Shown in pieces: positions 1-14,918 of a stretch of DNA of 43,220 nt. The translations under genes and the position numbers were made by a program. The stretch comes from a virus. The stretch's first letter is position 1; each line of letters begins with the position of its first letter. Under the pieces are notes generated by a model. The model searched no databases and was not told where the DNA came from. It saw only the letters and a list, made by a program, of their open reading frames with translations. The stretch lies in IMG/VR virus record IMGVR_UViG_3300005338_000004, positions 1-43,220 of that record, one strand, 5' to 3'.

Positions 1-120
1 GGCTATTTAAGCTTCTGGAGATAGTATTGAGATATATTTAGCCGCCTTCGGCGGGGCTTGCAGCGCTTCGCTCGCTGTCGAGTACAGATTCCGGCAATTT
101 GTTAACACGTCCAGCCAACA
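1..120. repeat. terminal direct repeat, left copy
   Basis: These 120 bases are identical to 43101-43220. The leftward gene series reads straight across the joint: a zinc-protein gene ends at 102 and the next leftward gene starts at 43080. The repeat is therefore best read as an assembly overlap of a circular or circularly permuted genome, though a genuine short terminal redundancy is not excluded. An R-to-F pair of the mini-palindrome family straddles the joint. Confidence 0.95.
39..56 (+). repeat. mini-palindrome, F copy at the joint
   Basis: TAGCCGCC, loop, GGCGGGG; stem CCGCC/GGCGG. For the leftward genes it is an R copy between the zinc-protein stop and the next gene. Confidence 0.8.
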
Positions 121-362
121 TGCATGTAAGGACAATCGTCATCATGTGACTTGGCGGGATCGTTAGGGGTGCGGAGGACGCCGTAATCGCAGAATCGGCA
201 ACCATGAGGATTAGCAATGAGCGCCGCAAGCGCCTCTTGATATGGCTTCCGAACGTGTCGGGCGAGGGTGTAAAGCTCTCGCATCGAAGCCTTCCTGAGC
301 AAGGCTGCTAGGTCAGGGTCACGGCCTATAATCTCCCATATCGTAAGTTCACCTTCGGTCAT
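102..362 (-). CDS. small Cys/His zinc-binding-like protein
   Basis: An 86-residue protein starting MTEGELTIWE. The ATG at 362 overlaps the stop of the upstream methylase gene (ATGA), which fixes the start. The first 50 residues look helical. The C-terminal third has CRFC, then a late H, CPYMH and a terminal Cys, an arrangement that could hold zinc and is common in small phage proteins. It is the last leftward gene before the circular joint, and translational coupling to the methylase is likely. No specific function is recognised. Confidence 0.7.
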   Translation of the reverse strand: MTEGELTIWEIIGRDPDLAALLRKASMRELYTLARHVRKPYQEALAALIANPHGCRFCDYGVLRTPNDPAKSHDDDCPYMHVGWTC

Positions 363-862
363 CTCTCTCGTCCTTTCAGATAAAATCCGGGGACCGGAAT
401 GGATGCCAGCCGTGTGCCGCACTCTCCCCATCCGACTAGCACTGTAGCCCTCATCAGGCCAACTTGGGATCGATCCAGCCGCAGAAACTTCGGCCTGCCT
501 GCCATGAACAGGAAATGCTCAGCCGTCTTCGCCATGTCTTGAAACCATCGGGTGTCACTAGAGGCAAGGACCAAAGCAATGCCGTTGCCATGCTCCGCCA
601 TAGCGCGCATCCAAGGGCCTGGATTGCTGTAAGGCGGGTTGCACCACACCGAACCCTCCCAAGCCTCCCTGAGTCCGTTTCTAGGCCATACAATGCGGTT
701 CGTTGCCGTGGGGTGGTCCTCGATAGCGCATGGGTCGGTATCGAATGGACCAAGGGCATTAATCAGGCTCAATGGCGTAAGAGTCGTATCCTTGGCCCCA
801 ATTGGGTCATGTGGAGAGATATTGCCGTTAACACTCATCCGCGTAGCGGCTGTCTCTGTCAT
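359..862 (-). CDS. phage DNA N-6-adenine methyltransferase (Dam family)
   Basis: A 167-residue protein of the phage Dam type (PF05869-like), which transfers a methyl group from SAM to adenine in DNA. The catalytic NPPY motif is at residues 75-78 in the context VWCNPPYS. The upstream DPCA region and the GRPKFLR stretch fit the family, and the length is usual for the small phage enzymes. The ATG at 862 overlaps the stop of the ribbon-helix-helix gene. Residues 4-8 (TAATR) are encoded by a copy of the dispersed mini-palindrome. The likely role is modification of phage DNA against host restriction; target specificity cannot be read from the sequence. Confidence 0.87.
   Translation of the reverse strand: MTETAATRMSVNGNISPHDPIGAKDTTLTPLSLINALGPFDTDPCAIEDHPTATNRIVWPRNGLREAWEGSVWCNPPYSNPGPWMRAMAEHGNGIALVLASSDTRWFQDMAKTAEHFLFMAGRPKFLRLDRSQVGLMRATVLVGWGECGTRLASIPVPGFYLKGRER
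839..851 (-). repeat. mini-palindrome inside the methylase gene
   Basis: Stem CCGC/GCGG; encodes AATR on the minus strand. Confidence 0.75.
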
Positions 863-1017
863 ATCTGTTCCTTTGGATTAGCCGCCTTCGGCGGGGGCGC
901 TTCGCGCTCTAGAAGGCCACGAACCCAATCGCTCACCGTGCGTCCCGGCTTTGCCGTCGCCTTCCTCCATACCCGCTTCTTTAAGGCTTCATCAACCTTC
1001 ACATTGATTGTCGGCAT
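859..1017 (-). CDS. ribbon-helix-helix-like DNA-binding protein
   Basis: A 52-residue protein starting MPTINVKVDEALKKRVW. A short beta segment followed by two helices (EALKKRVWRKA, VSDWVRGLLER) fits a ribbon-helix-helix fold. It is the first gene behind the leftward promoter at 1059-1086 and lies beside the promoter overlap, so it is a good candidate regulator of that switch (inference). The C-terminal tail APPPKAANPKEQI is encoded by an inserted mini-palindrome. Longer in-frame starts run into the promoter and are unlikely. Confidence 0.65.
   Translation of the reverse strand: MPTINVKVDEALKKRVWRKATAKPGRTVSDWVRGLLEREAPPPKAANPKEQI
879..896 (+). repeat. mini-palindrome inside the RHH gene
   Basis: Stem CCGCC/GGCGG; on the minus strand encodes the PPPKAAN end of the ribbon-helix-helix protein. 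Confidence 0.75.
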
Positions 1018-1034
1018 GGACTGCAAATTCCCTC

Positions 1035-1063
1035 TTGACAGCGTGTTACGTTGCGACGATATT
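1035..1063 (+). promoter_or_regulatory. rightward early sigma70-like promoter
   Basis: TTGACA at 1035-1040, a 17-base spacer and GATATT at 1058-1063. The predicted start near 1070 gives a short leader before the first rightward gene at 1109. It shares its -10 region with the leftward promoter. Confidence 0.65.
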
Positions 1064-1086
1064 ACCAATCACAAACGCAATGTCAA
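1059..1086 (-). promoter_or_regulatory. leftward sigma70-like promoter
   Basis: Read on the minus strand: TTGACA (plus 1081-1086), a 16-base spacer and TAATAT (plus 1059-1064). The predicted start near 1052 leaves about 35 bases before the ATG at 1017. It overlaps and opposes the rightward promoter. Confidence 0.65.
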
Positions 1087-1108
1087 GCACGAACAACGGG
1101 AGCGGCCA

Positions 1109-1486
1109 GTGGCAGACATGAAGATCACAGACGGCAAGGGCGTCCACTTCACGATGGACAATGGCGTGCTCATCAGCATCCAGATCGGCCCCGGCAATTA
1201 CGGGTCGAACTACGACATGGGCTTCTCGGAGTTCTATGAGGGTGGCCGCAAGGCGTTGCCATCGTCAACCACGGCAGAGATTGCCGTATGGAACACGCGA
1301 CCAGTGTCCGGCATGCTGAACTTGGGTGACGATACCGTAAGGGGCTACGTGCCGGTAGAGGACGTGTTGCGCTTCATGGAGTTCCTTCGCAAGCTTCCCG
1401 AGGGCGTTACCACAAACTCGTGGGCCGAGCGGCTTGCCGAGTTTGATTGGGAGCCCGCCACACAGCGCGACGAGGCCGCAGAATGA
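1109..1486 (+). CDS. hypothetical early protein
   Basis: First rightward gene, 125 residues if started at the GTG (VADMKITDGKG) that lies 6 bases after GGGAG; the ATG at 1118 would give 122. It looks like a compact soluble alpha/beta protein with an N-terminal beta stretch (GVHFTMDNGVLISIQIG) and a helical C-terminus (VEDVLRFMEFLRKLPEG). The reading frame stays open upstream to 464, but that part is antisense to the methylase gene and spans the promoter. No family is recognised. Confidence 0.7.
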   Translation: MADMKITDGKGVHFTMDNGVLISIQIGPGNYGSNYDMGFSEFYEGGRKALPSSTTAEIAVWNTRPVSGMLNLGDDTVRGYVPVEDVLRFMEFLRKLPEGVTTNSWAERLAEFDWEPATQRDEAAE

Positions 1487-1656
1487 GCAACCATCACCCC
1501 CGCGTAGCGGCTAAATCATCTATCCAGGATGAATACGGTAACAGGATAAGACTCACTTGGTGGGAAGTTCTGTATTTTGGACTTAGCTGCTTCGCAGTGG
1601 TGTGGCTAGCAGCGTGGGCATATGAGGCGGCAGCGGTCGCCGGAGGGATGCAATGA
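1483..1656 (+). CDS. small single-pass membrane protein
   Basis: A 57-residue protein whose ATG overlaps the previous stop. There is one transmembrane segment at about residues 27-47 (VLYFGLSCFAVVWLAAWAYEA). Residues 6-10 (RVAAK) come from an in-frame mini-palindrome at 1498-1515, one of the clearest cases of the element inside a coding region. Function unknown. Confidence 0.6.
   Translation: MSNHHPRVAAKSSIQDEYGNRIRLTWWEVLYFGLSCFAVVWLAAWAYEAAAVAGGMQ
1498..1515 (-). repeat. mini-palindrome, coding RVAAK
   Basis: R copy with stem CCGC/GCGG, loop GTA, in frame near the N-terminus of the membrane protein. Confidence 0.8.
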
Positions 1657-1880
1657 GCTGGCCAGACGAACCCTATTGGTCAGGAGACAATGCCATCAGC
1701 AATGAGGAAGACGACAGGATCACGGCTGAGGAAGCGGCGAAGACGCCGGAGCAGATCAATGCCGAGGCTATCGCACTCCTTGCCCAGACTGTTCTGGGGT
1801 TGAGCCAGAGGGTGAAGGCTCTTGAAGCACAGGGCAGGAAGCCTAGACGCCCATTCACTTCAGGCGAGATAAATGATTAG
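1653..1880 (+). CDS. hypothetical acidic protein with coiled coil
   Basis: A 75-residue protein with a good GGAGGG ribosome site; its start overlaps the previous stop. The N-terminus is acidic, then a helix (INAEAIALLAQTVLGLSQRVKALEAQ) with heptad character, then a basic tail. Probably a small oligomeric regulator or scaffold; not recognised. Confidence 0.6.
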   Translation: MSWPDEPYWSGDNAISNEEDDRITAEEAAKTPEQINAEAIALLAQTVLGLSQRVKALEAQGRKPRRPFTSGEIND

Positions 1881-1905
1881 CCTCAAGAGTTTGAGGAAGC
1901 CTAAT

Positions 1906-1948
1906 CCGCCGAAGGCGGCTAACTATTCAGCGCTACGCGCGGGGAAGG
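1906..1948. repeat. R/F palindrome pair
   Basis: R copy 1906-1922 (CCGCC/GGCGG) and F copy 1929-1948 ending GGGGAAGG, the ribosome site of the gene at 1956. Confidence 0.85.
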
Positions 1949-1955
1949 GAAGACG

Positions 1956-2120
1956 ATGAGGAAGTACGAGATACTGGAGCAGGTTGCCAGAAGGTGGGTC
2001 TCAAGGGGCTTTGTTTGGGCTCTGACGCATAGAGAGGCGACTAACAAATGGTGCGGCCTCGTGGGCATGAGCAGGGCGAGGGCCGATCTGGTTCTGACCG
2101 CGCATCTCATTCTGGATTAA
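1956..2120 (+). CDS. hypothetical 54-aa basic protein
   Basis: ATG at 1956 lies 8 bases after GGGGAAGGGA, a ribosome site supplied by the mini-palindrome at 1929-1948. The product starts MRKYEILEQVARRWVS and ends AHLILD with TAA at 2118-2120. It is bounded by palindromes on both sides, like a cassette. Helical, basic, unknown function. Confidence 0.6.
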   Translation: MRKYEILEQVARRWVSRGFVWALTHREATNKWCGLVGMSRARADLVLTAHLILD

Positions 2121-2121
2121 T

Positions 2122-2140
2122 CCCGCCGTAGGCGGCTAAA
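2122..2140 (-). repeat. mini-palindrome, R copy after a stop
   Basis: Stem CCGCC/GGCGG with loop GTA, directly after TAA 2118-2120 and before the GGAAGGG site. Confidence 0.8.
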
Positions 2141-2157
2141 TATAGGAAGGGAATAAG

Positions 2158-2421
2158 ATGGAAGACGTAGCCGCTACGCGGGGTAAGGAAGATAGACTCA
2201 ATTCATTTGCTGAGGAGTGCCGCACTAAGCTGCGTGCCAAAATCCTTGAGACGATGGACGTTACGTCGCTCTGGTCAGCAGCGCGAGACACGGACCTGTC
2301 CCGCTACGAAGTCGAGCATATGACCGCAAAACAGCTTCGCGCCGCGTTAGTTGAGAGATGGTCAGACGCCGAGGAAGCAATATTCCGTCACCTAGACGGA
2401 GCAAAGGACAATCGGCCATGA
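2158..2421 (+). CDS. hypothetical 87-aa protein
   Basis: The ribosome site GGAAGGG precedes ATG 2158. Residues 4-8 (VAATR) are encoded by an F-copy of the palindrome, so the element sits just inside the gene. The rest is helical and charged (FAEECRTKLRAKILETMD, LRAALVERWSDAEEAIFRHL). No family recognised. Confidence 0.6.
   Translation: MEDVAATRGKEDRLNSFAEECRTKLRAKILETMDVTSLWSAARDTDLSRYEVEHMTAKQLRAALVERWSDAEEAIFRHLDGAKDNRP
2168..2183 (+). repeat. mini-palindrome, coding VAATR
   Basis: F copy, stem CCGC/GCGG, in frame in the gene at 2158. Confidence 0.8.
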
Positions 2422-2681
2422 GCGAGCCCCAAGGAACCCGCGTAGCGGCTGTACTTGACTCCCAACGCTGGCGTGAAACCCGTGACGAGTTGGATGCTAT
2501 GGCCAGCAAGCTCTACACCCTGGCTGAGACTGATGATGGCTGGATCAGTAGGAACCTGCATTCCTTAGCTGCTGAGGTCAGTGTCCTTGCAGAGCAATAT
2601 GCTCAGAAGCTTAAGGCTCATGATGCATTGAAGATGGCTTTGGAAGGATCATTAATAGCCGCTACGCGGGGAGTGGAATGA
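2418..2681 (+). CDS. hypothetical coiled-coil protein with a palindrome at each end
   Basis: An 87-residue protein; ATG at 2418 overlaps the previous stop. Both ends are encoded by palindrome copies: TRVAAV near the N-terminus (2437-2450, R orientation) and IAATRG at the C-terminus (2656-2671, F orientation). Between them is a long helix (ELDAMASKLYTLAETDDG, LAAEVSVLAEQYAQKLKAH). Unknown role. Confidence 0.6.
   Translation: MSEPQGTRVAAVLDSQRWRETRDELDAMASKLYTLAETDDGWISRNLHSLAAEVSVLAEQYAQKLKAHDALKMALEGSLIAATRGVE
2437..2450 (-). repeat. mini-palindrome, coding TRVAA
   Basis: R copy in frame in the gene at 2418. Confidence 0.75.
2656..2671 (+). repeat. mini-palindrome, coding IAATRG
   Basis: F copy encoding the C-terminus of the same gene. 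Confidence 0.8.
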
Positions 2682-2776
2682 TGGAAATGCTCAAGGTTTG
2701 GTTGCCGGGCGAAAGCCCATGGTCCGAGGTTCTGTCCAGCAATGAAGGACGGCACCAAGACTGTGCGCCTCGATAA
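2678..2776 (+). CDS. possible 32-aa peptide overlapping the next gene
   Basis: ATGATGGAAATG directly overlaps the previous TGA, the arrangement used throughout this arm, and the frame runs to TAA at 2774-2776. It overlaps the start of the gene at 2742. The other frame across the same bases reads a Cys-rich segment without a start codon, so this may instead be the damaged 5' end of the next gene. Confidence 0.3.
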   Translation: MMEMLKVWLPGESPWSEVLSSNEGRHQDCAPR

Positions 2777-2978
2777 CAAGCTGGCTGGCGACTACACCAA
2801 GGACGAGTTCCGGGCGCTCCTTGCTGCGGTCTGGACGAACCAGAGTGGCGGAGAACCTCCTGGGATGGGCGACACGGACTACCGCAAGCACTCTTACCGC
2901 TTCAACGATATCGTGAATGTTCGGCAGGAGCCGGAGACCGGAGTCTGGGCGGTTATCGGGTATGCAGCCACAAACTAA
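2742..2978 (+). CDS. hypothetical 78-aa protein
   Basis: Starts MKDGTKTVRLDNKLAGD. The ATG has no clear Shine-Dalgarno sequence. The frame is open upstream to 2682 and reads a Cys-containing segment (CSRFGCRAKAHGPRFC) that resembles a zinc knuckle but lacks a start. The body is soluble with an acidic helix (KDEFRALLAAVW). It ends just before an R palindrome at 2979-2998. Function unknown. Confidence 0.5.
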   Translation: MKDGTKTVRLDNKLAGDYTKDEFRALLAAVWTNQSGGEPPGMGDTDYRKHSYRFNDIVNVRQEPETGVWAVIGYAATN

Positions 2979-2998
2979 CCCCGCCGCTAGGCGGCTAA
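2979..2998 (-). repeat. mini-palindrome, R copy after a stop
   Basis: Stem CCGCC/GGCGG with loop GCTA immediately after TAA. Confidence 0.8.
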
Positions 2999-3026
2999 AT
3001 ATGTCATGAACTATAAGGAGGGAAGA

Positions 3027-3296
3027 ATGAATGAAGTAGCCGAGGACAAGCCTCAGGTCGATCTAACAGAGTTCCTTACAGACCGGAAGCAAGCCCTGCT
3101 GTCGATGAACCTCGATACGATCAACGCCTACATGCGCAAGCACGGCTCCGCCTTCACGCTGCCGGATAACGATGTCGGCTGGATGGCAGTCCACAAGGCA
3201 CGGACGGCCGCAACCGATCTGCCTATGGATGAGCGCCAGAAAAGCGCCGACTGGCTGACGAACCGGGGCTATCAATCATGGGGAGACTGGAATTGA
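3027..3296 (+). CDS. hypothetical 89-aa protein
   Basis: A strong AAGGAGG site precedes ATG 3027, which I prefer to the ATG at 3006. Soluble and mostly helical; the middle (SAFTLPDNDVGWMAVHKARTA) and the end (WLTNRGYQSWGDW) recall small phage proteins of no known function. Confidence 0.65.
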   Translation: MNEVAEDKPQVDLTEFLTDRKQALLSMNLDTINAYMRKHGSAFTLPDNDVGWMAVHKARTAATDLPMDERQKSADWLTNRGYQSWGDWN

Positions 3297-3631
3297 GCCC
3301 TCAAGCCCTAGCTGCTCTTATCGTCACCCTTTCCGCTGTAAGCGGCTGCAATAAAACTGAACTTCATCATACGAATCTCGTTGCTCAGTTCCTTGGTGAA
3401 TCTCCTGAATTAGAATTAGCCGCTAACGCGGGGGAGATAGACCCACCTATCCCGACGAAGGCGGCTCAACCTGATCCAATTCTACCACCGCCTACACCAA
3501 CAGGACCAGCCTTCGGAGAATACGGCTATACCGGCCCGCTTCCCTGCCCTGAATCAAGATTCAGAATTTTGACCTGCGGCGATAATGGCGAATGGCACTG
3601 GCTCGACAGCAATATGGGATGGGCAACATGA
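3293..3631 (+). CDS. probable small lipoprotein, proline-rich
   Basis: The start is probably the TTG at 3293, 7 bases after GGGGAG and overlapping the previous stop; this gives 112 residues. The N-terminus SPQALAALIVTLSAVSGC is a short signal with a lipobox-like end, so the mature protein would be lipid-anchored at its Cys. A proline-rich stretch follows (PPIPTKAAQPDPILPPPTPT), encoded in part by palindrome-derived sequence. Phage lipoproteins of this kind may be outer spanins or surface-exclusion proteins. It is far from the lysis genes, so exclusion is the more natural guess, but unproven. Confidence 0.5.
   Translation: MSPQALAALIVTLSAVSGCNKTELHHTNLVAQFLGESPELELAANAGEIDPPIPTKAAQPDPILPPPTPTGPAFGEYGYTGPLPCPESRFRILTCGDNGEWHWLDSNMGWAT
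3417..3434 (+). repeat. mini-palindrome, coding LAANAG
   Basis: F copy with a 4-base loop TAAC; a degenerate R copy follows at 3451-3468. Confidence 0.65.
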
Positions 3632-4008
3632 TAGATGATCTCAAGATCATGAACGCCATCATCGAAAGCGCCGTGCTTGATATCGGTGACCGTGGCTTCC
3701 TGCAAAGCTGGATCACACTCGACTATGGCGGCACAGGGCAGGGCTTCGGTGGGTTCGTGCTGTGTCCCTACATCGGCAGCGACATGAATCCTGACTGGAC
3801 CAAGTTCAGCGGCAACTATGCCGGTGTCTGGCTCACCCGGATCATGCAGATTGCCGCCGTTGGCGAATGGGGCAAGCTGAAAGGCCGGACCATCCGCGCC
3901 AAGGCAAATCACGGTCGCGTCGAAGCCATCGGCCATATCGTCAAGGACGACTGGTTCAACCCGTCCGAGGTGTTCAAGGCTATGGAGGAAGCAAATGTCC
4001 ACGCTTGA
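3628..4008 (+). CDS. conserved phage protein of unknown function
   Basis: A 126-residue protein starting MIDDLKIMNAIIESA; ATG 3628 overlaps the previous stop. The order of motifs (TLDYGGTGQGFGGFVL, then WLTRIMQIAAVGEWGKLKGRTIRAK, then AIGHIVKDDWFNP) matches a protein I recognise as widespread in unrelated phages beside recombination genes, with no assigned activity. Here too it sits directly upstream of a recombination-like gene. Confidence 0.65.
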   Translation: MIDDLKIMNAIIESAVLDIGDRGFLQSWITLDYGGTGQGFGGFVLCPYIGSDMNPDWTKFSGNYAGVWLTRIMQIAAVGEWGKLKGRTIRAKANHGRVEAIGHIVKDDWFNPSEVFKAMEEANVHA

Positions 4009-4897
4009 ACCCCGCATCGAAGCCATCCGCAAAGAATACGGCCTGTCTCAGGACGACTTCTGGCAGATCAAACAGAACAAGCAATGGGTGTGTAAACACG
4101 CTGCGCTAGAGGTCGTAGCCGCCAAGGCGGGTATCGAATGGCTGGAACCCCGGATCATCGAAATGAATGCCACCGGCTTGGTCACGTCCTTGATCGTCAC
4201 CGGCAAGCTCGGCAACCGCGTCGAGTGGTCAATCGGGGAAACCAATCCGACGAACTATAGCGTCACCGGCAAGCAACCCGCCTATCCGTGGGCCATGTCC
4301 GAGAAGCGCGGGAAAGACAGGGTGATCCTCAAACTGAGCGGTGTTCATGGCCTGCTCTACTCGGATGCGGAGATGGATGCCCCTAGCAGCCACATAGATG
4401 CCCAAGGAGAGGCTTCTGAGGTTGTCTCGGACAGTACAGCCAAATTGGTGTTCCCTGCCCTACAGAGCGAATTACAGGGCTGCGCTACGCGGTCGCAGTT
4501 GGACGGTGCTTGGTCCCGTTGGCTACCCGTCATCGTCCATTGGTCCGAATCCATGCAGCAGAATTGTGAGGACGTGCGCCAGCAAATGACGGATTACCTT
4601 CGTGAGCATGGCGGCGATGCCAGGGAAGCTAACCGTGACGTGATCGAGGCTGATCTGCGTTCCGCACTGGATATCGATGATCTCAAGGCCAAATGGTCAG
4701 GCTGGGGACCGGCAATGAAGAAGCTGGCTGCTGCTGATGTAGCCAAGCTCTCAGAGGCTAAGGAACAGGTGAAGAAGGCAATCCTGAATATCGGAGGGAA
4801 GGCACCGGATTTCGATCATCTGGATACTTCCCGCGAAGCGGCTGATCCTGAACTAGCTAAAGCAGAACGGTTAGCTGCCATTGCGAGGACGCCATGA
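3995..4897 (+). CDS. phage protein, possible recombination or ssDNA-annealing partner
   Basis: A 300-residue protein with a GGAGGA site, overlapping the previous gene by 14 bases. The N-terminal half (residues 1-130) contains WVCKHAALEVVAAKAGIEW and AMSEKRGKDRVILKLSGVHG; the latter resembles the AEKRAKDRLxLKLxG segment seen in phage proteins near single-strand annealing genes. The C-terminal half is helical and charged. Two palindromes lie inside: VVAAKAG (4116-4131) and SREAADP (4830-4842). The nucleic-acid role is inferred from motif shape only. Confidence 0.5.
   Translation: MSTLEPRIEAIRKEYGLSQDDFWQIKQNKQWVCKHAALEVVAAKAGIEWLEPRIIEMNATGLVTSLIVTGKLGNRVEWSIGETNPTNYSVTGKQPAYPWAMSEKRGKDRVILKLSGVHGLLYSDAEMDAPSSHIDAQGEASEVVSDSTAKLVFPALQSELQGCATRSQLDGAWSRWLPVIVHWSESMQQNCEDVRQQMTDYLREHGGDAREANRDVIEADLRSALDIDDLKAKWSGWGPAMKKLAAADVAKLSEAKEQVKKAILNIGGKAPDFDHLDTSREAADPELAKAERLAAIARTP
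4116..4131 (+). repeat. mini-palindrome, coding VAAKAG
   Basis: F copy, stem CCGCC/GGCGG with loop AA. Confidence 0.65.
4830..4842 (-). repeat. mini-palindrome, coding SREAA
   Basis: R copy with loop GAA in frame. Confidence 0.7.
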
Positions 4898-5028
4898 TGA
4901 CCAACAGGATGTACGTTCTGTCCATCATTGGCTCCTCTATTATCGTCCTGGCAGTGTCCTATGGGATGGCGATGCTTCAGGAACCTCAAGCTCATTGGCT
5001 TTGGTGTACGATGCTGAAGCTGTGTTAA
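4894..5028 (+). CDS. 44-aa membrane peptide
   Basis: ATGATGA at 4894 overlaps the previous stop. The product is MMTNRMYVLS followed by one hydrophobic helix (IIGSSIIVLAVSYGMAML) and a short Cys/Trp tail. TAA at 5026-5028 is followed at once by an R palindrome. Function unknown. Confidence 0.55.
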   Translation: MMTNRMYVLSIIGSSIIVLAVSYGMAMLQEPQAHWLWCTMLKLC

Positions 5029-5070
5029 TCCGCGTCAGCGGCTAAATATAACGCCTACGGGCGGGGAAGG
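5029..5070. repeat. R/F palindrome pair
   Basis: R copy 5029-5045 follows a TAA directly; F copy 5051-5070 has stem CGCC/GGCG and supplies GGGGAAGG to the gene at 5078. Confidence 0.85.
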
Positions 5071-5077
5071 AAGTAAG

Positions 5078-5341: not shown

Positions 5342-5355
5342 GCGTTAACACTCTA

Positions 5356-5410
5356 CCCCGCGTAGCGGCTAATACATCTATATGAATAGCCGTGTAAGAA
5401 CACGGGAAGG
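5356..5410. repeat. R/F palindrome pair with variant stem
   Basis: R copy 5356-5372 (CCGC/GCGG); F copy 5387-5410 with stem CCGTGT/ACACGG, a fully compensated change, followed by GGAAGGG. Confidence 0.85.
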
Positions 5411-7266: not shown

Positions 7267-7554
7267 ATGAGCATAAATAGCGCTACGCGGGAAGCAGAGG
7301 CCGAGATTCAAACTTGGTTTGATAAGGTGGCCGCGCTTTGCATCGCACGAGGAGCCCCGGAAGGTTGGGAGGTATCCTTATCGGAGCTTCTGGGCACATA
7401 CCCGACCTACACGCACTACAAGATCGACGGTGCAGTTTACGGCAAACCAGCTCCCGGAAGACGAAAAGGCAAGCCCGTAGCCGGGACGAAGATGACCTTC
7501 ATTTTCAGTAACGAAGAAATCCGCGCCCTAAGCGATCCCGACGAAGTCGGCTAA
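7267..7554 (+). CDS. hypothetical 95-aa protein
   Basis: AAGGATACAGT precedes ATG 7267. Residues 4-8 (NSATR) derive from an F palindrome and the last residues and stop (DEVG, TAA) from an R palindrome with the variant stem CCGAC/GTCGG. The gene is therefore bracketed by the element. The body contains SLSELLGTYPTYTHYKIDG and a basic loop; no family recognised. Confidence 0.6.
   Translation: MSINSATREAEAEIQTWFDKVAALCIARGAPEGWEVSLSELLGTYPTYTHYKIDGAVYGKPAPGRRKGKPVAGTKMTFIFSNEEIRALSDPDEVG
7278..7294 (+). repeat. mini-palindrome, coding SATRE
   Basis: F copy in frame at the N-terminus of the gene at 7267. Confidence 0.75.
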
Positions 7555-7587
7555 CTATATAATAGCCGCCTAAGAGGCGGGGAAGGG
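7537..7587. repeat. R/F palindrome pair, stop then ribosome site
   Basis: R copy 7537-7554 (stem CCGAC/GTCGG) contains the TAA; F copy 7563-7587 (CCGCCT/AGGCGG) ends GGGGAAGGG before ATG 7598. Confidence 0.88.
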
Positions 7588-7597: not shown

Positions 7598-8104
7598 ATG
7601 GACAACATCAGGTTTGGACCAACTCTGGAAGAGCAGATGCCAACCGAAGAGGAACTTGCGGTAGTGTCGGAGACGATCAAAGCAGCTTTCGAGAAGCACG
7701 AGTCAGAGAAGCGCAAGAAGGTGAGTTTTGTGGGTGCTCCGGCATGCTTCCGACTTGAGCTTGCCTGCCAGCCGATCAATCAAGCCTTTGGCGGGTTCGG
7801 CTGCTACCTAGTTGGCAGTGCGCTTGAGCGACCGGACTGGCGTGACATCGATGTTCGCTTCATCATGACCGATGCCGAGTTTAGCGCCGAGTTTCCAGCG
7901 GTCAACATGAAGGCGCATACTTGGGAGTTTGATCCGAAGTGGATTCTGCTCACGACCGGTATTTCCGCGTATCTAAGCAAAGCCGCTGACCTTCCGGTCG
8001 ATTTCCAGTTCCAGCCTCAGACGCACGCAAACGAGAGGCATAAGGGACCGTGTAAACCGTTGGGCTTGATATTCGCCAAACCTGATCCCGCCGAAGGCGG
8101 CTAA
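7598..8104 (+). CDS. phage nucleotidyltransferase-fold protein
   Basis: A 168-residue protein. VGS at 72-74 and DID at 83-85 form the nucleotidyltransferase signature (hGS, about ten residues, then DxD). LPVDFQFQPQT later supplies the third acidic position. A C-terminal NERHKGPCKPLGL stretch is typical of the phage members I recognise. Substrate unknown; the fold transfers nucleotides to proteins, RNA or small molecules. The ribosome site comes from an F palindrome, and the C-terminus PAEGG plus TAA from an R palindrome. Confidence 0.75.
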   Translation: MDNIRFGPTLEEQMPTEEELAVVSETIKAAFEKHESEKRKKVSFVGAPACFRLELACQPINQAFGGFGCYLVGSALERPDWRDIDVRFIMTDAEFSAEFPAVNMKAHTWEFDPKWILLTTGISAYLSKAADLPVDFQFQPQTHANERHKGPCKPLGLIFAKPDPAEGG

Positions 8105-8150
8105 ATCTATCTCTATAGTCTAATAGCTAGCGCGCTACGCGCGGGGAAGG
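8087..8150. repeat. R/F palindrome pair, stop then ribosome site
   Basis: R copy 8087-8104 encodes PAEGG and TAA; F copy 8128-8150 (GCGCG/CGCGC) supplies GGGGAAGG to GTG 8158. Confidence 0.88.
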
Positions 8151-9033: not shown

Positions 9034-9036
9034 CGT

Positions 9037-9058
9037 CCCCGCGTCCTTACGCGGCTAA
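9037..9058 (-). repeat. mini-palindrome, R copy
   Basis: Stem CCGCGT/ACGCGG, loop CCTT, just after TAG 9031-9033. Confidence 0.8.
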
Positions 9059-9483: not shown

Positions 9484-9508
9484 TAGCCGTCCTTTGGACG
9501 GGGAAGGG
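9484..9508 (+). repeat. mini-palindrome, F copy with variant stem
   Basis: Stem CCGTCC/GGACGG, loop TTT; ends GGGGAAGGG before ATG 9516. Confidence 0.85.
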
Positions 9509-9515
9509 AGGACAG

Positions 9516-9722: not shown

Positions 9723-9728
9723 CCCTTC

Positions 9729-9748
9729 CCCCGCCTCTTGGCGGCTAA
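9729..9748 (-). repeat. mini-palindrome, R copy
   Basis: Stem CCGCC/GGCGG, loop TCTT, after TAA 9720-9722. Confidence 0.8.
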
Positions 9749-9768
9749 CTCAGGCTAAATAGGTTCCT

Positions 9769-9972
9769 ATGACTAATAAGAGAGAGATAGATGTAGCCGC
9801 TACGCGGGATTACCAGATTGCCGCATTGAAGCAGGAGCTTCACGAAGCTCGAAAGCGGGCGCGTCAGGCAAACACTCGTGCTGACATCGCGGAGACCAAG
9901 CTACGGACCTTCAAGGCCGCTATCCGGGACAAGGCATCAGGACAATGGGTTTACGAGGAGTGGGGGCAGTGA
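9769..9972 (+). CDS. hypothetical coiled-coil protein
   Basis: A 67-residue protein. Residues 9-13 (VAATR) are encoded by an F palindrome at 9794-9808. The rest is one long charged helix (ALKQELHEARKRARQANTRADIAETKLRTF). Unknown function. Confidence 0.6.
   Translation: MTNKREIDVAATRDYQIAALKQELHEARKRARQANTRADIAETKLRTFKAAIRDKASGQWVYEEWGQ
9794..9808 (+). repeat. mini-palindrome, coding VAATR
   Basis: F copy in frame in the gene at 9769. Confidence 0.8.
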
Positions 9973-10292
9973 ACGATATCGAGGAAGCCAGCGGCGAGAC
10001 CGTACAGGCCGCTTTGGAGGATCAGCGCAGCGGAGGGCTGGACGTGTACCGAACGGCCGTCAGTGAGGCGCAGGATCGCCACAGCGCCGTGGTTACCGCC
10101 ATAGTCGAGGCTAGGGACGAGATACACAAGATCGAGGGCCGCATGCACGACGATGCCAAGCTGCTGAACGGCTGGAAAGAGCACCTGTCCTATCAGGAGC
10201 GCAGGAAAGCGGCTTTGGAACGCAGGATCATTGCCAACAGGGCCTTCCTGCGCAGTGCAGAAGATGAAGCGTCAGGGATCATAGAACCATGA
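9969..10292 (+). CDS. hypothetical coiled-coil protein
   Basis: GTG 9969 overlaps the previous stop (GTGA) and follows GTGGGGG, giving 107 residues. Almost wholly helical with heptads (AVVTAIVEARDEIHKIEGRMHDDAKLL, YQERRKAALERRIIANRAFLR). Unknown. Confidence 0.6.
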   Translation: MNDIEEASGETVQAALEDQRSGGLDVYRTAVSEAQDRHSAVVTAIVEARDEIHKIEGRMHDDAKLLNGWKEHLSYQERRKAALERRIIANRAFLRSAEDEASGIIEP

Positions 10293-10636
10293 GCATTCCT
10301 AGCTGGGTTAGAGTCGGGGCGAAGGTGGTGTGTGTTAACGATGATCCAAATCTGATGAGGGTCAATGCAGTGCATCCGGGCTTGGACGGCCTGTCCAAGA
10401 ACAGCATCTATACGATCAGCGGAACCTACATTGACCCTTGGGTTAGGTGTCTGATGGTCAGGCTGGTCGAGATTACCAGACGCTTCGAGCCAATGGCTGA
10501 TGGCGAGGCTGGCTTCATTGTTAGCCGTTTCCGCCCCGTACAGACCCTTCGGCAGGATGTCCGTATGGTGAAGGCCCTGATCCGGCAAATGCCTGCCAGC
10601 AAGAGGCTGGATCGACTACGGGAGCTATCGGAATGA
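10289..10636 (+). CDS. conserved phage protein, SH3/KOW-like start
   Basis: A 115-residue protein with ATG overlapping the previous stop. The N-terminus IPSWVRVGAKVVCVNDDP, a central YTISGTYID and the late SRFRPVQT follow a common small phage protein of beta-barrel type with no known activity. The C-terminus (VKALIRQMPASKRLDRLRELSE) is helical and basic. Confidence 0.6.
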   Translation: MSIPSWVRVGAKVVCVNDDPNLMRVNAVHPGLDGLSKNSIYTISGTYIDPWVRCLMVRLVEITRRFEPMADGEAGFIVSRFRPVQTLRQDVRMVKALIRQMPASKRLDRLRELSE

Positions 10637-10836
10637 AGGCCGGGGCAGACCCAATCGACTGGCAGGACATTCGGCTTGTATGTGGCGAAGGAAAGCTTAC
10701 CGCCGATGATGTTTACATCGCCGTTGAGATCATCCTGCTTCAGCGGCGGGAGCGGGAGCCTCAATCTGCACAACAGGGCGAGCTAGGACCATCCTCACAA
10801 GCTATGTTCCAGCCTGACTCACAGAGCAAGCCATGA
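10633..10836 (+). CDS. hypothetical 67-aa protein
   Basis: ATGA overlap with the gene before. The N-terminal half is ordered-looking (DWQDIRLVCGEGKLTADDVYIAVEIILLQ), followed by a Gln/Ser-rich disordered tail. Not recognised. Confidence 0.5.
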   Translation: MKAGADPIDWQDIRLVCGEGKLTADDVYIAVEIILLQRREREPQSAQQGELGPSSQAMFQPDSQSKP

Positions 10837-11006
10837 ACCTCCTGACCCGCGAAGCGGCTAATCTATCTCGTCTTAAACGTTCTCTCCTTCCTATAGTAAG
10901 GATAGAGCTAAGTGTGTTTACGCCTGATGATGAGGTAGCTGTCAGAGTTAGATTAAATGACGTAGCCGCCGTTCCTTCCCCTCGCGCTAGCGAGGCTAAA
11001 CCATGA
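10833..11006 (+). CDS. hypothetical 57-aa protein bracketed by palindromes
   Basis: ATG 10833 overlaps the previous stop; TGA at 11004-11006 overlaps the next start. Residues 5-9 (TREAA) come from an R palindrome at 10846-10861 and the tail (PRASEAK) from another at 10978-10998 with stem CCTCGC/GCGAGG. GAGG of that copy is also the ribosome site of the next gene. The middle (IVRIELSVFTPDDEVAVRVRL) is beta-like. Unknown. Confidence 0.55.
   Translation: MNLLTREAANLSRLKRSLLPIVRIELSVFTPDDEVAVRVRLNDVAAVPSPRASEAKP
10846..10861 (-). repeat. mini-palindrome, coding TREAAN
   Basis: R copy with loop GAA. Confidence 0.75.
10978..10998 (-). repeat. mini-palindrome, variant stem
   Basis: Stem CCTCGC/GCGAGG; encodes PRASEAK and provides GAGG before ATG 11003. 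Confidence 0.75.
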
Positions 11007-11395
11007 CTACACCCAGTGACGTGCAAGAGCTGATCTCGCGGCTTACATCGGCTCATGGCAGGCTGGTCGCATACACATCAGCGCCGGATATGATCTACAC
11101 CGTCCCCGGCGCCGTGGACCGGCTCGCTGTAAAACGCGACGACGTTCTGATGGCTCAATACCGTATCGCGGAAGCGGCCACCACCCTCGCCGCTCAAGCA
11201 GCCCGGATCGAGGAACTGGAAAAGGCGCTGCGGACGACCGCCGACATCTTCGAGGACATGTACCGATACGGTGTCGTTTACACCCCGAGTCCCGACGACA
11301 AGGGAGAGTTCACCAGCGCCTACTACCTCGGCGAAGGCATCATGCCGATGATCCGCGCCGTCCTACAACCCCCAATGCCAGTGGAGCCGAGATAG
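11003..11395 (+). CDS. hypothetical coiled-coil phage protein
   Basis: A 130-residue protein. Residues 45-80 form a helix (AQYRIAEAATTLAAQAARIEELEKALR) of the kind seen in many small accessory phage proteins, followed by a short ordered C-terminal part (DIFEDMYRYGVVYTPSPDD). Unknown. Confidence 0.6.
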   Translation: MTTPSDVQELISRLTSAHGRLVAYTSAPDMIYTVPGAVDRLAVKRDDVLMAQYRIAEAATTLAAQAARIEELEKALRTTADIFEDMYRYGVVYTPSPDDKGEFTSAYYLGEGIMPMIRAVLQPPMPVEPR

Positions 11396-11848
11396 ATGAG
11401 CGACGACGACAAGAAGTACGCAGCGCCGCCCGATGAATTTCCAGACAAGGGTGAAAGCGGTAGCGGCTCCACGGTTGGCTACTCAGTCGAAGCACGCTAC
11501 GCCTACTACAAGCCCCTGCCGATCACCGAGGATTTCACCTTAGACCTCCGGTGGAGGCGCATTCCAATCAACACCAGAGGCCCAATCGGGGTTCCTGACA
11601 GGAATGCGTGGCATGGCGATGCCATCCGCTACGGACTGCATTCTTGGGAAGCCGCTCAGGCCCTGCGCTGGTGGTTCTTAGCTGATCTCGAAACCCAACG
11701 GAACCTCTCAACAATGTGCGTTGAGACGAGGATCGTTGAACACAAGATCACCTACAGTTTTAGCGTCGAAGCGACCGGCGCAACCGATCCGCAAGACTTC
11801 CGCAGCGACCGTTTTCCAAGTCGCAAAAAGCCGGAGCCCCAGCCATGA
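11396..11848 (+). CDS. hypothetical 150-aa protein
   Basis: Starts MSDDDKKYAAPPDEF directly after the previous stop. Acidic disordered N-terminus, then a domain with LDLRWRRIPINTRGPIG, SWEAAQALRWWFLADLET and a strand-rich VETRIVEHKITYSFSVE. Ends in a basic Pro tail. No family recognised. Confidence 0.6.
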   Translation: MSDDDKKYAAPPDEFPDKGESGSGSTVGYSVEARYAYYKPLPITEDFTLDLRWRRIPINTRGPIGVPDRNAWHGDAIRYGLHSWEAAQALRWWFLADLETQRNLSTMCVETRIVEHKITYSFSVEATGATDPQDFRSDRFPSRKKPEPQP

Positions 11849-13083
11849 CCACACCAACCACACTCAGCGATGAGAGGCTGCGCTACCTAGCTGATCATCC
11901 CGCATCGGCGCTTGTTGCCCCGGCTCCATTCGGTTCAGATGGCACCCACAGACTGCGCCAATCAGAACTTGAGGCGCTCGCCCGAGAAGCCCTTGCTGCA
12001 CGAAGCCTGCCGGAGGGGGTACCCACGCATCGGCATGTGAAGCGCGGCACCGAGTACACCCTGATCGCCTACGGGCACTGGACCGGCATTAATCAGGTCG
12101 TAGAGGACGGCGCCGATCTAAGCGTAAGGGAAGACGCGCCGGGCTTGTGGTCTGCGTGTGAGCAGTACGAACGCGAAAGCGGCCAATGGGCGTCCCTCCA
12201 AACCGGGAAGCCGATGGCCCTTGGCGATGTCGTCGCAATCTACCGCTCCGTCGATGACGACTCGCTGTGGGTGAGGCCGCGCGAGGAATTTGAGGACGGT
12301 CGCTTCATCACCCTCCCCCGCCTAGCGGCTAATACCCCCTCACCAGAAGGGGTAGGGACAATGGAGGGGGTAGCTTTCCAATATCGCGTTGCGCCGTGGA
12401 TGCGGGCTTGTTTCGGTCCTGAGATCAGCAACGACCGCCTAGAGCGTGGGGACCGGGCGCTGGAAGAAATGCTCGAAATGCTCCAGTCTGGGGACTACCC
12501 GCGCGAGCGCGTAGCGGCGTTGACCGAGTATGTCTATTCCCGGCCAAAAGGCGACCCCCATCAAGAGGTCGGTGGCGTCATGGTCACGCTCGCGGCGTAT
12601 TGCCTCGCACACAACCTTGACATGCACGCGGCTGGCGAAGACGAACTCGCCCGCATCAACACCCCCGAGACCATCGCGAAGATTAGAGCCAAGCAAGCGG
12701 CAAAACCAACAGGTTCGGCACTCCCCGTCGCAATCGCCGCCCCCGCTCAACCCGTAACCGTCAAGGGGGAGCCTGTGGCTCATATGACCGAACAAGACGC
12801 CCTTTGGCTCGATGCTAAGGGCACGGTCGATTGCCGCCTCTACCGGCTTCCCATGGGCTCGCGTTGGACAGTCCCCCTCTACCGCGCCTCACCAATACAG
12901 GATGGAACAGCCGCTACGCGGGAAGAGGTGATCGAGGAATGCGCGAAGGTGGCAGAAGCGGAATCTGAGGCTCAGGCGCTTTCACACAAGGAAGCTATCG
13001 AACTTACCGACCCTGCCCGTCGTCTCGGTAAACGCATTGCCAAGGCCATTCGCGCCCTCTCCCTTGCCGGGAGAAGCAAATGA
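11845..13083 (+). CDS. multidomain protein with MazG-like core
   Basis: A 412-residue protein that looks like three accessory modules in one chain. Residues about 62-160: HRHVKRGTEYTLIAYGHW to LWVRPREEFEDGRF, a DUF1653-like domain. Residues about 172-300: a MazG-like segment (EEMLEMLQSGDYPRERVAALTEYV, then EVGGVMVTLAAYCLAHNLDMHAAGEDELARI) of the alpha-NTP-pyrophosphohydrolase type, though the EExxE metal site is partly degenerate. Residues about 310-412: GEPVAHMTEQ to PLYRASP and REEVIEECAKVAEA, a module common at phage accessory-protein ends. Three palindrome copies lie inside and between modules (RLAAN, RVAAL, AATRE), so the element may mark fusion seams. Confidence 0.7.
   Translation: MTTPTTLSDERLRYLADHPASALVAPAPFGSDGTHRLRQSELEALAREALAARSLPEGVPTHRHVKRGTEYTLIAYGHWTGINQVVEDGADLSVREDAPGLWSACEQYERESGQWASLQTGKPMALGDVVAIYRSVDDDSLWVRPREEFEDGRFITLPRLAANTPSPEGVGTMEGVAFQYRVAPWMRACFGPEISNDRLERGDRALEEMLEMLQSGDYPRERVAALTEYVYSRPKGDPHQEVGGVMVTLAAYCLAHNLDMHAAGEDELARINTPETIAKIRAKQAAKPTGSALPVAIAAPAQPVTVKGEPVAHMTEQDALWLDAKGTVDCRLYRLPMGSRWTVPLYRASPIQDGTAATREEVIEECAKVAEAESEAQALSHKEAIELTDPARRLGKRIAKAIRALSLAGRSK
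12316..12332 (-). repeat. mini-palindrome, coding PRLAAN
   Basis: R copy at a domain boundary of the MazG-like fusion. Confidence 0.7.
12908..12922 (+). repeat. mini-palindrome, coding TAATRE
   Basis: F copy in the C-terminal module of the MazG-like fusion. Confidence 0.75.
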
Positions 13084-13463
13084 AGGATTTAGCCGCTTCG
13101 CGGGAAGAAGAATTGTCAGGCGCAATCCGCGTTTGCCCGGAGCGCGACGGACGGTGTCCGCATGGCATGGCGTGCCCGTACTCCATTGATCGCTACCATT
13201 GTAACCTGGAGGCCAGCCGTCGCGCCCTAGCCCCGGCGAAGTCGGCTGCAAAGACGCGCGGTCAGGTTCTCATGGCCCTCATCCGAGTCGGTCCTACAAC
13301 TGCCAAGGCGATTGCTGAGGCAACTGGCCTCGGGATGCCAACTATCTATACGCATCTCACGAAGTTGGAATATCAAAAACAGGCGTTTCGGTCAAAGCCT
13401 AGTGGCCGCAGTTTTATCTGGTACTGGTCATTTGGTGCAAACCACCCCGCCGAAGGCGGCTAA
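13080..13463 (+). CDS. winged-helix protein with N-terminal Cys cluster
   Basis: A 127-residue protein; GGGAGAAG precedes ATG 13080. LAASR near the start is palindrome-encoded. Residues 19-41 hold CPERDGRCPHGMACPY and a further Cys, a possible metal site. Residues about 60-105 form a winged helix (RGQVLMALIRVGPTTAKAIAEATGLGMPTIYTHLTKLE) like IclR/MarR-type domains. The end (HPAEGG and TAA) comes from an R palindrome. Likely a transcription regulator; partner DNA unknown. Confidence 0.7.
   Translation: MKDLAASREEELSGAIRVCPERDGRCPHGMACPYSIDRYHCNLEASRRALAPAKSAAKTRGQVLMALIRVGPTTAKAIAEATGLGMPTIYTHLTKLEYQKQAFRSKPSGRSFIWYWSFGANHPAEGG
13090..13107 (+). repeat. mini-palindrome, coding LAASRE
   Basis: F copy at the N-terminus of the winged-helix gene. 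Confidence 0.75.
13445..13463 (-). repeat. mini-palindrome encoding PAEGG and stop
   Basis: R copy ending the winged-helix gene with TAA. Confidence 0.82.
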
Positions 13464-13559
13464 ATAAAACCCTATCAGATCACTACTGGTATAGCCTTCC
13501 TACTAGCTCTAGTGATTATTGTGATAGTAGGAATTAGCCGCTTCGCGGGGGCGATATGA
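13464..13559 (+). other. open frame encoding a transmembrane peptide, no canonical start
   Basis: In frame with the previous gene, immediately after its TAA, 31 codons read IKPYQITTGIAFLLALV and on to VIVGISRFAGAI, a perfect single membrane helix, and end with TGA overlapping the next ATG. The only candidate start near the 5' end is ATA 13464, preceded by GAAGG in the R palindrome; GTG codons occur only inside the helix. It may be read by stop readthrough or an unusual start, or be a relic. Confidence 0.4.
13535..13553 (+). repeat. mini-palindrome, F copy
   Basis: Supplies GCGGGGG to ATG 13556. Confidence 0.8.
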
Positions 13560-13720
13560 GCAAGTTCGAGAGCAAAATGCAGGTATTCTTCGCTGTGGCG
13601 TTCATCGCAAGCGCTGCTTTGGAACTAGGAGGCGTGCCAAGTGCCGTTATCCTGCCTGTGGTGGCCGTTCTCGGTATTCTGGCTGCACCGGCCTACAAAC
13701 CGACAGGAGACCGCCAATGA
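13556..13720 (+). CDS. 54-aa two-helix membrane protein
   Basis: The F palindrome at 13535-13553 supplies GCGGGGG before ATG 13556. The product MSKFESKMQVFFAVAFIASAALELGG then VPSAVILPVVAVLGILAAP has two hydrophobic helices. It lies upstream of two exported proteins. It has holin-like size but is far from the lysis cassette; function unknown. Confidence 0.6.
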   Translation: MSKFESKMQVFFAVAFIASAALELGGVPSAVILPVVAVLGILAAPAYKPTGDRQ

Positions 13721-13971
13721 ACCGTAGATCACTGCTGTTAGGGATGGGTGCTGTCCTTGCCGCTCCGGCTGTCGTCAAGGCAGAGTCGCTGATGAAGACA
13801 GCTCGCTTACGCGAGGACGTGCGCGGATCGATCCTTGAACTCTACCGCAACTCCGCTTCCCCGGCTACCGGTGATCTCGCGCAATTCAACGGCCAAACCT
13901 TCTGGCTATCGAATGACGGCTTCTACGCGATGAGCCATATAAGCGATCTGCAACGCATTCAGGGTTCTTGA
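13717..13971 (+). CDS. exported 84-aa protein
   Basis: AGGAG precedes ATG 13717. The N-terminus MNRRSLLLGMGAVLAAPAVVKAES has an Arg-Arg pair, hydrophobic core and AxA-like cleavage site, a signal peptide with Tat character. The mature part is about 60 residues (LREDVRGSILELYRNSASPATG, then QTFWLSNDGFYAMS). Followed by a secreted collagen-like gene, so the pair may act in the periplasm or on the host surface. Unknown function. Confidence 0.65.
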   Translation: MNRRSLLLGMGAVLAAPAVVKAESLMKTARLREDVRGSILELYRNSASPATGDLAQFNGQTFWLSNDGFYAMSHISDLQRIQGS

Positions 13972-13973
13972 CA

Positions 13974-13994
13974 CCCCGCCCGTCTAGGGCGCTA
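13974..13994 (-). repeat. mini-palindrome, variant R copy
   Basis: Stem CGCCC/GGGCG just after the exported-protein stop. The overlapping TTGACA at 13968 has no good -10 partner. Confidence 0.6.
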
Positions 13995-14030
13995 CCAAGT
14001 GCAATCCCGTACTGAGATGAGGAGACCCAA

Positions 14031-14576
14031 ATGCTTAAGCTAAGAACCGTTGGAGTGGCGAGCCTTGCCCTCCTAACCCTGGGAGCGATGGCTTATCCGG
14101 CTGACGCTGCCAAGCACAAACCTATCCCGGTCGATGCCTGCTCCGTGATCCTATCCCTGCCCGATGATACCATCGTCAAGGCTGGCGATCTCAAGGGCTG
14201 TATCGAACACCTGTTGCTGATCGCTAACCAGTCGCATGGAACGGTCGTCATCAATACGGGCGGCTCGAATGGCGGCACTGCCGGTCCGGCTGGCAAGGAT
14301 GGCATCGGAACCAAAGGTGACAAGGGAGACAAAGGGGATGCCGGCCCGAAGGGTGACAAGGGCGACACTGGCCCACAGGGACCAGCGGGAGCCGATGGCA
14401 CTGACGGTAAGGACGGCCAGGATGGCGCTACAGGGCCGCAGGGCCCGGCTGGTCCCGAGGGGCCGCAGGGCGAACAAGGTGAGCCCGGGCCTATTGGTCC
14501 TCCGGGTCCGCAGGGAGAGCCGGGGACGGGTGGCGGGTGTGATGGACATAGTGGCGGGACACCAGCCTGCCCGTGA
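14031..14576 (+). CDS. secreted collagen-like protein
   Basis: A 181-residue protein; GAGGAG precedes ATG 14031. Signal peptide at about 1-27 (AMAYPADAA end). Residues 28-75 form a small globular part with two Cys (DACSV, KGCIE). From about residue 83 Gly-X-Y repeats begin; after one break 24 uninterrupted triplets run to about residue 165, rich in GDK, GPQ and GPP, enough for a collagen triple helix. The tail has two Cys (GGGCDG, PACP). Phage collagen-like segments usually belong to tail fibres; here the signal peptide and early-arm position suggest export from the infected cell. Confidence 0.85.
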
Positions 14577-14655
14577 TCTGAATTGGCGCTTCGCGGGGTT
14601 GCTTTCCCTCCTCGCGTAGCGCTATCTACCTAAGGGTCTATCCTCCCTGACCCTG

Positions 14656-14683
14656 CATCACAGGCATTCTCCCCGCTGTGATG
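14656..14683. terminator. 8-bp hairpin after the collagen-like gene
   Basis: CATCACAG pairs perfectly with CTGTGATG around a 12-base loop, 80 bases after the last rightward gene. There is no U-run directly after it, so termination is only probable. Confidence 0.4.
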
Positions 14684-14753
14684 TTACTGACCGGTGAGCG
14701 CTAATTGGGTTGAGTTAGATTACCCTGCGCTGCGTGCTCCCGGTCTTTCTTAT

Positions 14754-14770
14754 TAGCCGCCTGATGGCGG
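14754..14770 (+). repeat. mini-palindrome, F copy in the convergent region
   Basis: Stem CCGCC/GGCGG with loop TGAT (read TAGCCGCC to GGCGG). Confidence 0.7.
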
Positions 14771-14899
14771 TTTACGAGCGGCGGATCACGCGCGGAGTCG
14801 CACTCCGTGGCGGGTCGCCACAAACGGAAATACCGTGTGCAAATCCGGTCGCCCACACTTGGGAAGTCGTCTAAGCAGCAGGACACCGTTTCTTTCTTC

Positions 14900-14918
14900 C
14901 CCCGCCTCTTGGCGGCTA
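14900..14918 (-). repeat. mini-palindrome, R copy in the convergent region
   Basis: Stem CCGCC/GGCGG, loop TCTT. Confidence 0.75.

Follow-up and report, generated by a model that had tools for sequence, protein, structure and literature searches.

A family of very small hairpin repeats was analysed in the virus record IMGVR_UViG_3300005338_000004 (IMG/VR), over its whole stretch of 43,220 nucleotides, which is called the window here. The first and the last 120 bases are identical (end overlap), and thus the genome is probably complete, with 43.1 kb; its G+C content is 57%, and the virus is a podovirus. Portal, scaffold and other head proteins were matched by PHROG, and the window also carries NinB and HNH genes as well as one for a Dam-like methylase. 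The structural genes are transcribed leftward; the small genes of a right-going arm (about 1.1–14.6 kb) are mostly without counterpart in the relatives, whose best portal identity is 58–66%. Searches of the window yielded no tRNA and no Rfam match above the gathering score. Genes were called with a simple in-house model and manual additions, and exact gene starts are therefore provisional.

In the forward orientation (F), a copy of the repeat begins with the head (T)TAG, followed by a stem starting with CC (rarely CG or CT), mostly of 4–6 pairs, around a loop of 3–5 bases (TAC, TTC, TTAC, TAGC, AAGA, AAGG and others); the stem finishes with GG, which is often followed by GGAAGGGA. The reverse complement is designated R. 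Using the pattern [T/C]AG-CC(N2-4)-loop(3-5)-(N2-4)GG-GG(GAAGG), 43 copies were curated (Table 1); all but two are located in the two arms (41 copies). An earlier note on this DNA had reported about 45 dispersed copies between positions 39 and 14918 and a list of paired stem variants. The family and the variants are borne out, with compensated stems mostly of 4–6 bp, but the count is 43, and further copies are present at 15585, 17723, 40244, 40578, 40650 and 43092; the description has to be amended as well, since stems can be as short as 4 bp (in one variant 3 bp) and coding sequence contains many of the copies. Several features go beyond that note: the head-to-head dimers, the scarcity of copies in gene middles, the copies in frame within first codons, the supply of stop codons and Shine-Dalgarno (SD) sequences, and a second carrier phage.

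Chance or base composition can be ruled out as the source of the copies by four kinds of counts, the last of which, the pairing classes, is given below. The exact pattern TAGCCGCN{3,6}GCGGGG matched 15 times, and not at all in the reversed control. A scoring scan with a cut-off of >=14.5 found 28 copies, compared with a mean of 1.0 (maximum 3) in 40 dinucleotide shuffles and one match in the reversed genome; this is the opposite of a frequency expected from base composition, which the earlier note had named as the outcome that would speak against its proposal. The most over-represented 10-mer of the genome is CGCTACGCGG (13 occurrences, 0.2 expected), and seven relatives showed no comparable over-represented 10-mer family. 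At least one hairpin, at 4119, was dropped as a coding coincidence, the protein sequence there being conserved in homologues, and weak scanner matches in structural genes (14162, 17063, 19327, 20310, 22732, 26490, 30704, 34205, 37457, 37791 and 41388) were excluded as being near the chance level.

Scans which demand a stem cannot test pairing, and three other tests were used. First, 32 of 113 TAGCC sites open a perfect hairpin of at least 4 bp, compared with 1/100, 4/191 and 1/51 for the control pentamers GATCC, TTGCC and TACCC; the value for CAGCC, a set which includes true variants of the family, was 10/195. Second, fixed 16- to 18-mers served as references for gathering near-copies by Hamming distance. 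In these near-copies, stem changes were compensated pairs with few exceptions (e.g., 3450), while changes in loops and flanks were single. Third, [TC]AGCC...GGG sites were binned by inner pairing, with expectations taken from 1.23 Mb of related phages. Perfect inner stems were found at 31 sites (1.08 expected), and there was no excess of stems with one G-U pair (1, with 0.66 expected), with one mismatch (2, with 2.27 expected) or with worse pairing (11, with 12.4 expected). Perfect Watson-Crick stems thus account for the entire excess. Because the 3' arms were misaligned when 42 copies were aligned globally with MAFFT, gap-free length classes were used instead of a covariance model; in these, pairing was 100%, with five, three and four pairs changed on both sides, and the covariation score was reached by none of 500 shuffles. 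Since the rows had been chosen for perfect pairing, these counts illustrate the diversity of stems more than they test covariation.

The statements of the earlier note that the stems covary, and that the folded form is selected or copied, are thus upheld by the compensated near-copies and by the restriction of the excess to perfect stems, and the comparison with shuffled controls which it had proposed agrees, within the limit just given. Its choice between RNA and cruciform DNA can be narrowed: the lack of an excess of G-U pairs or single mismatches, together with the about equal orientation of copies relative to genes, favours a DNA hairpin or cruciform over RNA. A variable stem length between constant head and tail can be explained by a folded foot, not by a dimer site of fixed spacing. 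The form that is maintained would accordingly be a DNA hairpin, as indicated by strict Watson-Crick pairing, equal orientation and stems of variable length above an unchanging foot.

Neighbouring copies within 100 nt are arranged head-to-head (R-F) in 11 cases and tail-to-tail (F-R) in one, never in the same orientation. The spacers of the dimers are AT-rich (10–43% G+C, compared with 57% in the genome) and differ among dimers, and in most dimers the stems of the two hairpins are not alike. The copies at 9039 and 17723, and one at position 984 of the second carrier (G010, see below), have a 14-base outer flank, CTAGCGTCCCCGCG, in common, while their inner stems differ in a compensated manner; they are probably related by descent. 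Such a comparison of sequences suggests one source for all three, with a coordinated change of both arms.

With respect to genes, only 4 of the 41 arm copies are in the middle of a gene, where 57% would be expected (p = 4e-10). The 37 boundary copies are found within 40 nt of a stop more often than expected (27/37, 52% expected, p = 0.013). R copies supply the stop of three genes, in at least six cases an F copy directly adjoins the SD of the gene that follows, and nine copies are in frame within first codons, often encoding VAATR.

One other carrier was detected in the scans of IMG/VR, G010 (IMGVR_UViG_3300005937_000082, 24.2 kb, 56.6% G+C), with about 9–15 copies, head-to-head pairs, and copies adjoining starts and in first codons. 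It is a podovirus-like fragment with little overall similarity to the window and with different portal and capsid families. The family was absent from over 30 whole-record relatives of the window and of G010, and from 78 capsid-protein relatives, whose loci cover mainly the structural region. All scans for the family, including those of bacterial genomes (see below), rest on CCGC-type stems and would overlook a carrier whose stems are of another type. Concatenated elements gave nothing credible against GenBank phages and plasmids; the flank pattern TAGCGTCCCCGCGN{2,12}CGGCTA had no match in viral contigs, and a family scan of viral contigs found no relatives of 11845-13083. Lipoprotein-like genes of the window (3278-3631) and of G010 (L122, 794-1135) resemble each other in a C-terminal motif only, a similarity without statistical significance, and carry mini-hairpins at different places of the linker. 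The comparison of 2418-2681 with G010 23396-23782 was not significant (E = 0.12).

Among known systems, the REP elements of bacteria and their doublets, REPINs, are the closest, as the earlier note had already noticed. The GTAG tag of REP elements is kept in >90% of the members of most families, next to a stem-loop of 5–13 bp with a small loop (PMC3733652, PMC3116915); dimers in head-to-head arrangement, stems that change in a complementary way and units inside genes have also been described (PMC3733652). All three are found among the mini-hairpins, where head-to-head doublets likewise predominate; further points in common are the short stem-loop with a tag left unpaired at one of its feet, the small size of the loops and a copy number in the tens. 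Differences are also apparent. The head is TAG, mostly after T, with GTAG in few copies only; the stems of 4–6 bp, with loops of 3–5 and compensation, agree with those of REP, except that 4-bp copies fall below the range given. The arms of a REPIN doublet pair and are kept as a unit, but here the stems of a dimer mostly differ. The mini-hairpins are without mismatches, are carried by phages and were not found in the bacteria searched. As the tag differs and no Y1 transposase was found (see below), the family is regarded as working like REP, but is not filed under it.

From the head-to-head dimers, the tag and the intragenic copies we infer that the elements are dispersed, and non-autonomous dispersal in trans is held to be the likeliest explanation. 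Our reading, a tentative one, is that the repeats are miniature non-autonomous DNA hairpin elements which work like REP/REPIN, i.e., are moved in trans, kept perfect as DNA, and tolerated or co-opted at gene boundaries. Each unit comprises a TAG head that is left unpaired, a short stem-loop with perfect pairing and a tail rich in G, and often stands head-to-head with a second one across an AT-rich spacer. An enzyme of the host or the phage, acting in trans, could recognise the foot of the extruded DNA hairpin, irrespective of the stem sequence, and disperse it; copying from arm to arm, or selection on the DNA hairpin, or both, would keep the two arms identical. Copies would persist where they do little harm, at gene junctions, in first or last codons and in linkers, and some may have been co-opted as stop codons and SD sequences. 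The patchy spread, with presence in the dissimilar G010 and absence in relatives of the window, is in favour of this reading, as are the excess of perfect stems, the compensated near-copies, the predominance of head-to-head neighbours, the avoidance of gene middles and the outer flank common to three copies.

Several results weigh against such dispersal. The hairpins and spacers of the dimers differ, unlike those of REPINs, which are copied as a unit. No Y1 (REP-type, RAYT) transposase (PF01797) was present in the phage itself (G000), G010, G007 or G001, though one of the host may still act in trans. The family was absent from 398 and 385 alphaproteobacterial genomes (783 in all), in scans of the order and the class to which the only host-linked relative, a Pelagibacterium prophage, belongs; single matches at or below the control were obtained, and a REP family of a host within these groups was rejected as the source. 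Close relatives did not yield an empty site, and inspection of the listed flanks by eye showed no target-site duplication. In alignments of homologous proteins the copies stand in for variable residues, and clean insertions were not seen in those which could be aligned.

The main rival, which we consider unlikely, is a module at the RNA level for gene junctions or translation initiation, in which hairpins at the ribosome-binding region would control or insulate the translation of early genes. Within 40 nt of a start, 24 of the 41 arm copies are found, compared with 9.2 at random; F copies abut SD sequences, start codons lie between the R and F halves of several dimers, four in-gene F copies start at exactly +13, G010 has an equal start-flanking layout, and the fold of certain dimers places SD and AUG within a loop. 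However, once the avoidance of gene middles is taken into account, which explains most of the raw association, 24 of 37 boundary copies are near a start with 53% expected (p = 0.14), and the proximity to stops is the stronger one. G-U pairs are not in excess, copies occur in both orientations and also in linkers and C-termini, and the regions do not stand out in their folding energy (z -1.8 to +0.4). A precedent would be the SAS and ESAS of cluster K mycobacteriophages, which are dispersed in the non-structural arm near starts, and sometimes supply the SD; the SAS consensus is missing from those host genomes that were examined, and ESAS has the form of an inverted repeat whose spacer varies (PMC3203893, PMC12699233). 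The mini-hairpins are similar in location and in the occasional supply of the SD. SAS is, however, a conserved sequence, GGGATAGGAGCCC, nearly always in one orientation and 3–7 bp from starts, whereas the mini-hairpins differ in sequence, keep their structure with a free stem, and have both orientations and many coding copies.

Next in rank, and rather improbable as the sole cause of covariation, is a mutational origin: intrahairpin template switching during replication (quasipalindrome correction), an established type of mutation (PMC7202029), would copy one arm to the other without selection, dispersal being separate or old. The perfect-or-nothing distribution, in which intermediates carrying a single mismatch or G-U pair are no commoner than expected, and the variation of inner stems in length as well as sequence would fit. 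Yet GC-rich hairpins in the window number 59, compared with 44.8 in shuffles, an excess of about the size of the family, so that perfecting does not appear to be genome-wide; the TAG head, the G-rich tail and the copy number would be left unexplained.

Quite improbable are recombination patches, whose short homologies at junctions would permit small genes to be gained and shuffled, as with the PeSL cassettes of T4-type phages. PeSL (cited in PMC4503421) join an early promoter to a stem-loop of terminator type; the likeness is that of phage stem-loops in regions of gene shuffling, and promoter and terminator-like parts as given there were not seen at the mini-hairpins. The copies are concentrated in the small-gene, non-structural arms with few homologues in relatives, and the dimers bear stop and SD on both strands, but the identical stretches comprise merely 15–23 bases and no shuffled gene block was seen. 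A promoter scan, for the sigma-70 type only, gave 7 matches (6.6 in shuffles), none of them tied to copies; sites resembling intrinsic terminators, in which a T-run follows the stem, numbered 13 (12.7 in shuffles), and about three of them fall on copies. The palindromic form, the position at gene boundaries and the presence of both orientations would also suit operators bound by a dimeric protein, but these are hardly credible, since the inner half-sites vary freely and the distance between the outer arms differs by up to 5 bp, more than a dimer site of fixed spacing would tolerate.

Rickettsia palindromic elements are palindromes of roughly 100–150 bp in frame inside genes; in-frame copies (VAATR) are the feature in common, and the mini-hairpins are far smaller. 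MITEs possess terminal inverted repeats and a target-site duplication; by eye, no such duplication was noticed in the flanks listed here. Mitochondrial hairpins (yeast GC clusters, sponge RHE, double-hairpin elements) are likewise small GC-rich palindromes, patchy among relatives, mostly intergenic and sometimes paired, but belong to organelle genomes and are mostly longer units (PMC4478555, PMC2800124). The family is unusual among dispersed palindromic repeats in that phages carry it, its units are tiny and imperfect copies are absent. It is possible, if rather doubtful, that it represents a phage-borne class of structure-recognised mini-elements, in which an activity of phage or host would act on the foot of extruded 4–6 bp DNA hairpins, whatever their stem sequence, and disperse them to gene boundaries, while copying between the arms would keep all stems perfect, so that a shape rather than a sequence would be inherited.

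If the elements move, they should show how small phages come by junctions between genes, with a stop and an SD, and by peptide extensions at the N-terminus. Dispersed palindromic repeats have long been a puzzle in bacteria, and about 40 copies in 43 kb, with a second carrier phage, could provide a tractable system, in which the perfect-or-nothing split makes selection and templated arm copying directly testable.

Table 1. Mini-hairpin copies in the window (loops in lower case; + and - denote strands)
Position	Strand	Sequence or variant	Location and remarks
42-54	+	CCGCC[ttc]GGCGG	again at 43142-43154 in terminal overlap
839-849	-		first codons of Dam-like gene 359-862 (MTETAATR), +13
882-894	+		head-to-head with 839
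1500-1510	-		first codons of 1483-1656 (PRVAA)
1881-1896	+	CCTCAA[gagt]TTGAGG	weak
1906-1918	-		R half of dimer
1930-1940	+		F half of dimer; tail GGGGAAGGGA serves as SD for ATG 1956
2123-2135	-		R half; ATG 2158 between this copy and 2171
2171-2181	+		F half; +13 in 2158-2421 (MEDVAATR)
2438-2448	-		first codons of 2418-2681 (GTRVAA)
2659-2669	+		end of 2418-2681 (AATRGVE, then stop)
2981-2994	-		intergenic
3420-3431	+		linker of lipoprotein-like gene 3278-3631
4831-4841	-	CAG head	near 3' end of 3995-4897
5030-5041	-		R half of dimer
5052-5063	+		F half; SD tail for ATG 5078
5358-5368	-		R half of dimer
5390-5405	+	CCGTGT[aaga]ACACGG	F half
7280-7288	+	CGCtacGCG, short variant	+13 in 7267-7554
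7538-7550	-		R half; gives stop of 7267-7554 (GTCGGCTAA)
7566-7580	+	CCGCCT[aag]AGGCGG	F half; SD tail for ATG 7598
8088-8100	-		R half; gives stop of 7598-8104
8131-8143	+	CGCGC[tac]GCGCG	F half; SD tail for GTG 8158
9039-9054	-	inner stem GT..AC	outer flank CTAGCGTCCCCGCG common with 17723 and G010:984
9487-9501	+	CCGTCC[ttt]GGACGG	SD tail for ATG 9516
9731-9744	-		R half; ATG 9769 between this copy and 9797
9797-9807	+		F half; +28 in 9769-9972 (VAATRD)
10847-10857	-		first codons of 10833-11012 (TREAAN)
10980-10995	-	CCTCGC[tagc]GCGAGG	
12318-12328	-		mid-gene in 11845-13083
12911-12921	+	CAG head	mid-gene in 11845-13083
13093-13103	+		+13 in 13080-13463 (MKDLAASR)
13447-13459	-		R half; gives stop of 13080-13463
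13538-13548	+		F half; adjoins ATG 13556
13977-13991	-	CGCCC[tagac]GGGCG, variant	
14757-14770	+	without GG tail	
14902-14915	-		loop, stem and tail start equal to 9731
15585-15600	-	CGCACC[attc]GGTGCG, variant	upstream of 15359-15571
17723-17733	-		outer flank common with 9039; upstream of 17300-17713
40244-40257	+	CTCGC[ttac]GCGAG, variant	
40578-40588	-		first codons of 40263-40607 (VDVAATRD)
40650-40661	+		head-to-head with 40578
43092-43102	-	CCAC[tac]GTGG	upstream of 42880-43080

Other observations concern the genome as such. The large terminase consists of two overlapping open reading frames (ORFs) in different frames, 38328-39083 and 39040-39789 (-). G007 has the same layout, with identities of 76% and 83%, and G001 and G004 match in two pieces; the split therefore looks conserved and not like an error. 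The adjacent genes 30008-30619 and 30700-31134 (-) have a common C-terminus (GTIITPLSA and GTIITPFSA, respectively), which suggests a tandem duplication of a virion protein. The ORF 41052-41675, with a weak DnaT-like match, contains G-runs (GGGGTTTGGGGGGTATAGGGGGG) followed by tandem TGTCCGTGAC repeats at 41400-41540, and 41833-42369 (-) has a match to the DnaA C-terminal DNA-binding domain under the curated cut-off. The gene at 14031-14576 (+) encodes a small protein that looks secreted and contains Gly-X-Y repeats of the collagen type (PF01391). The product of 3995-4897 (+) is related to a recombination protein of Pseudanabaena phage Pam5 (48% over 118 amino acids).

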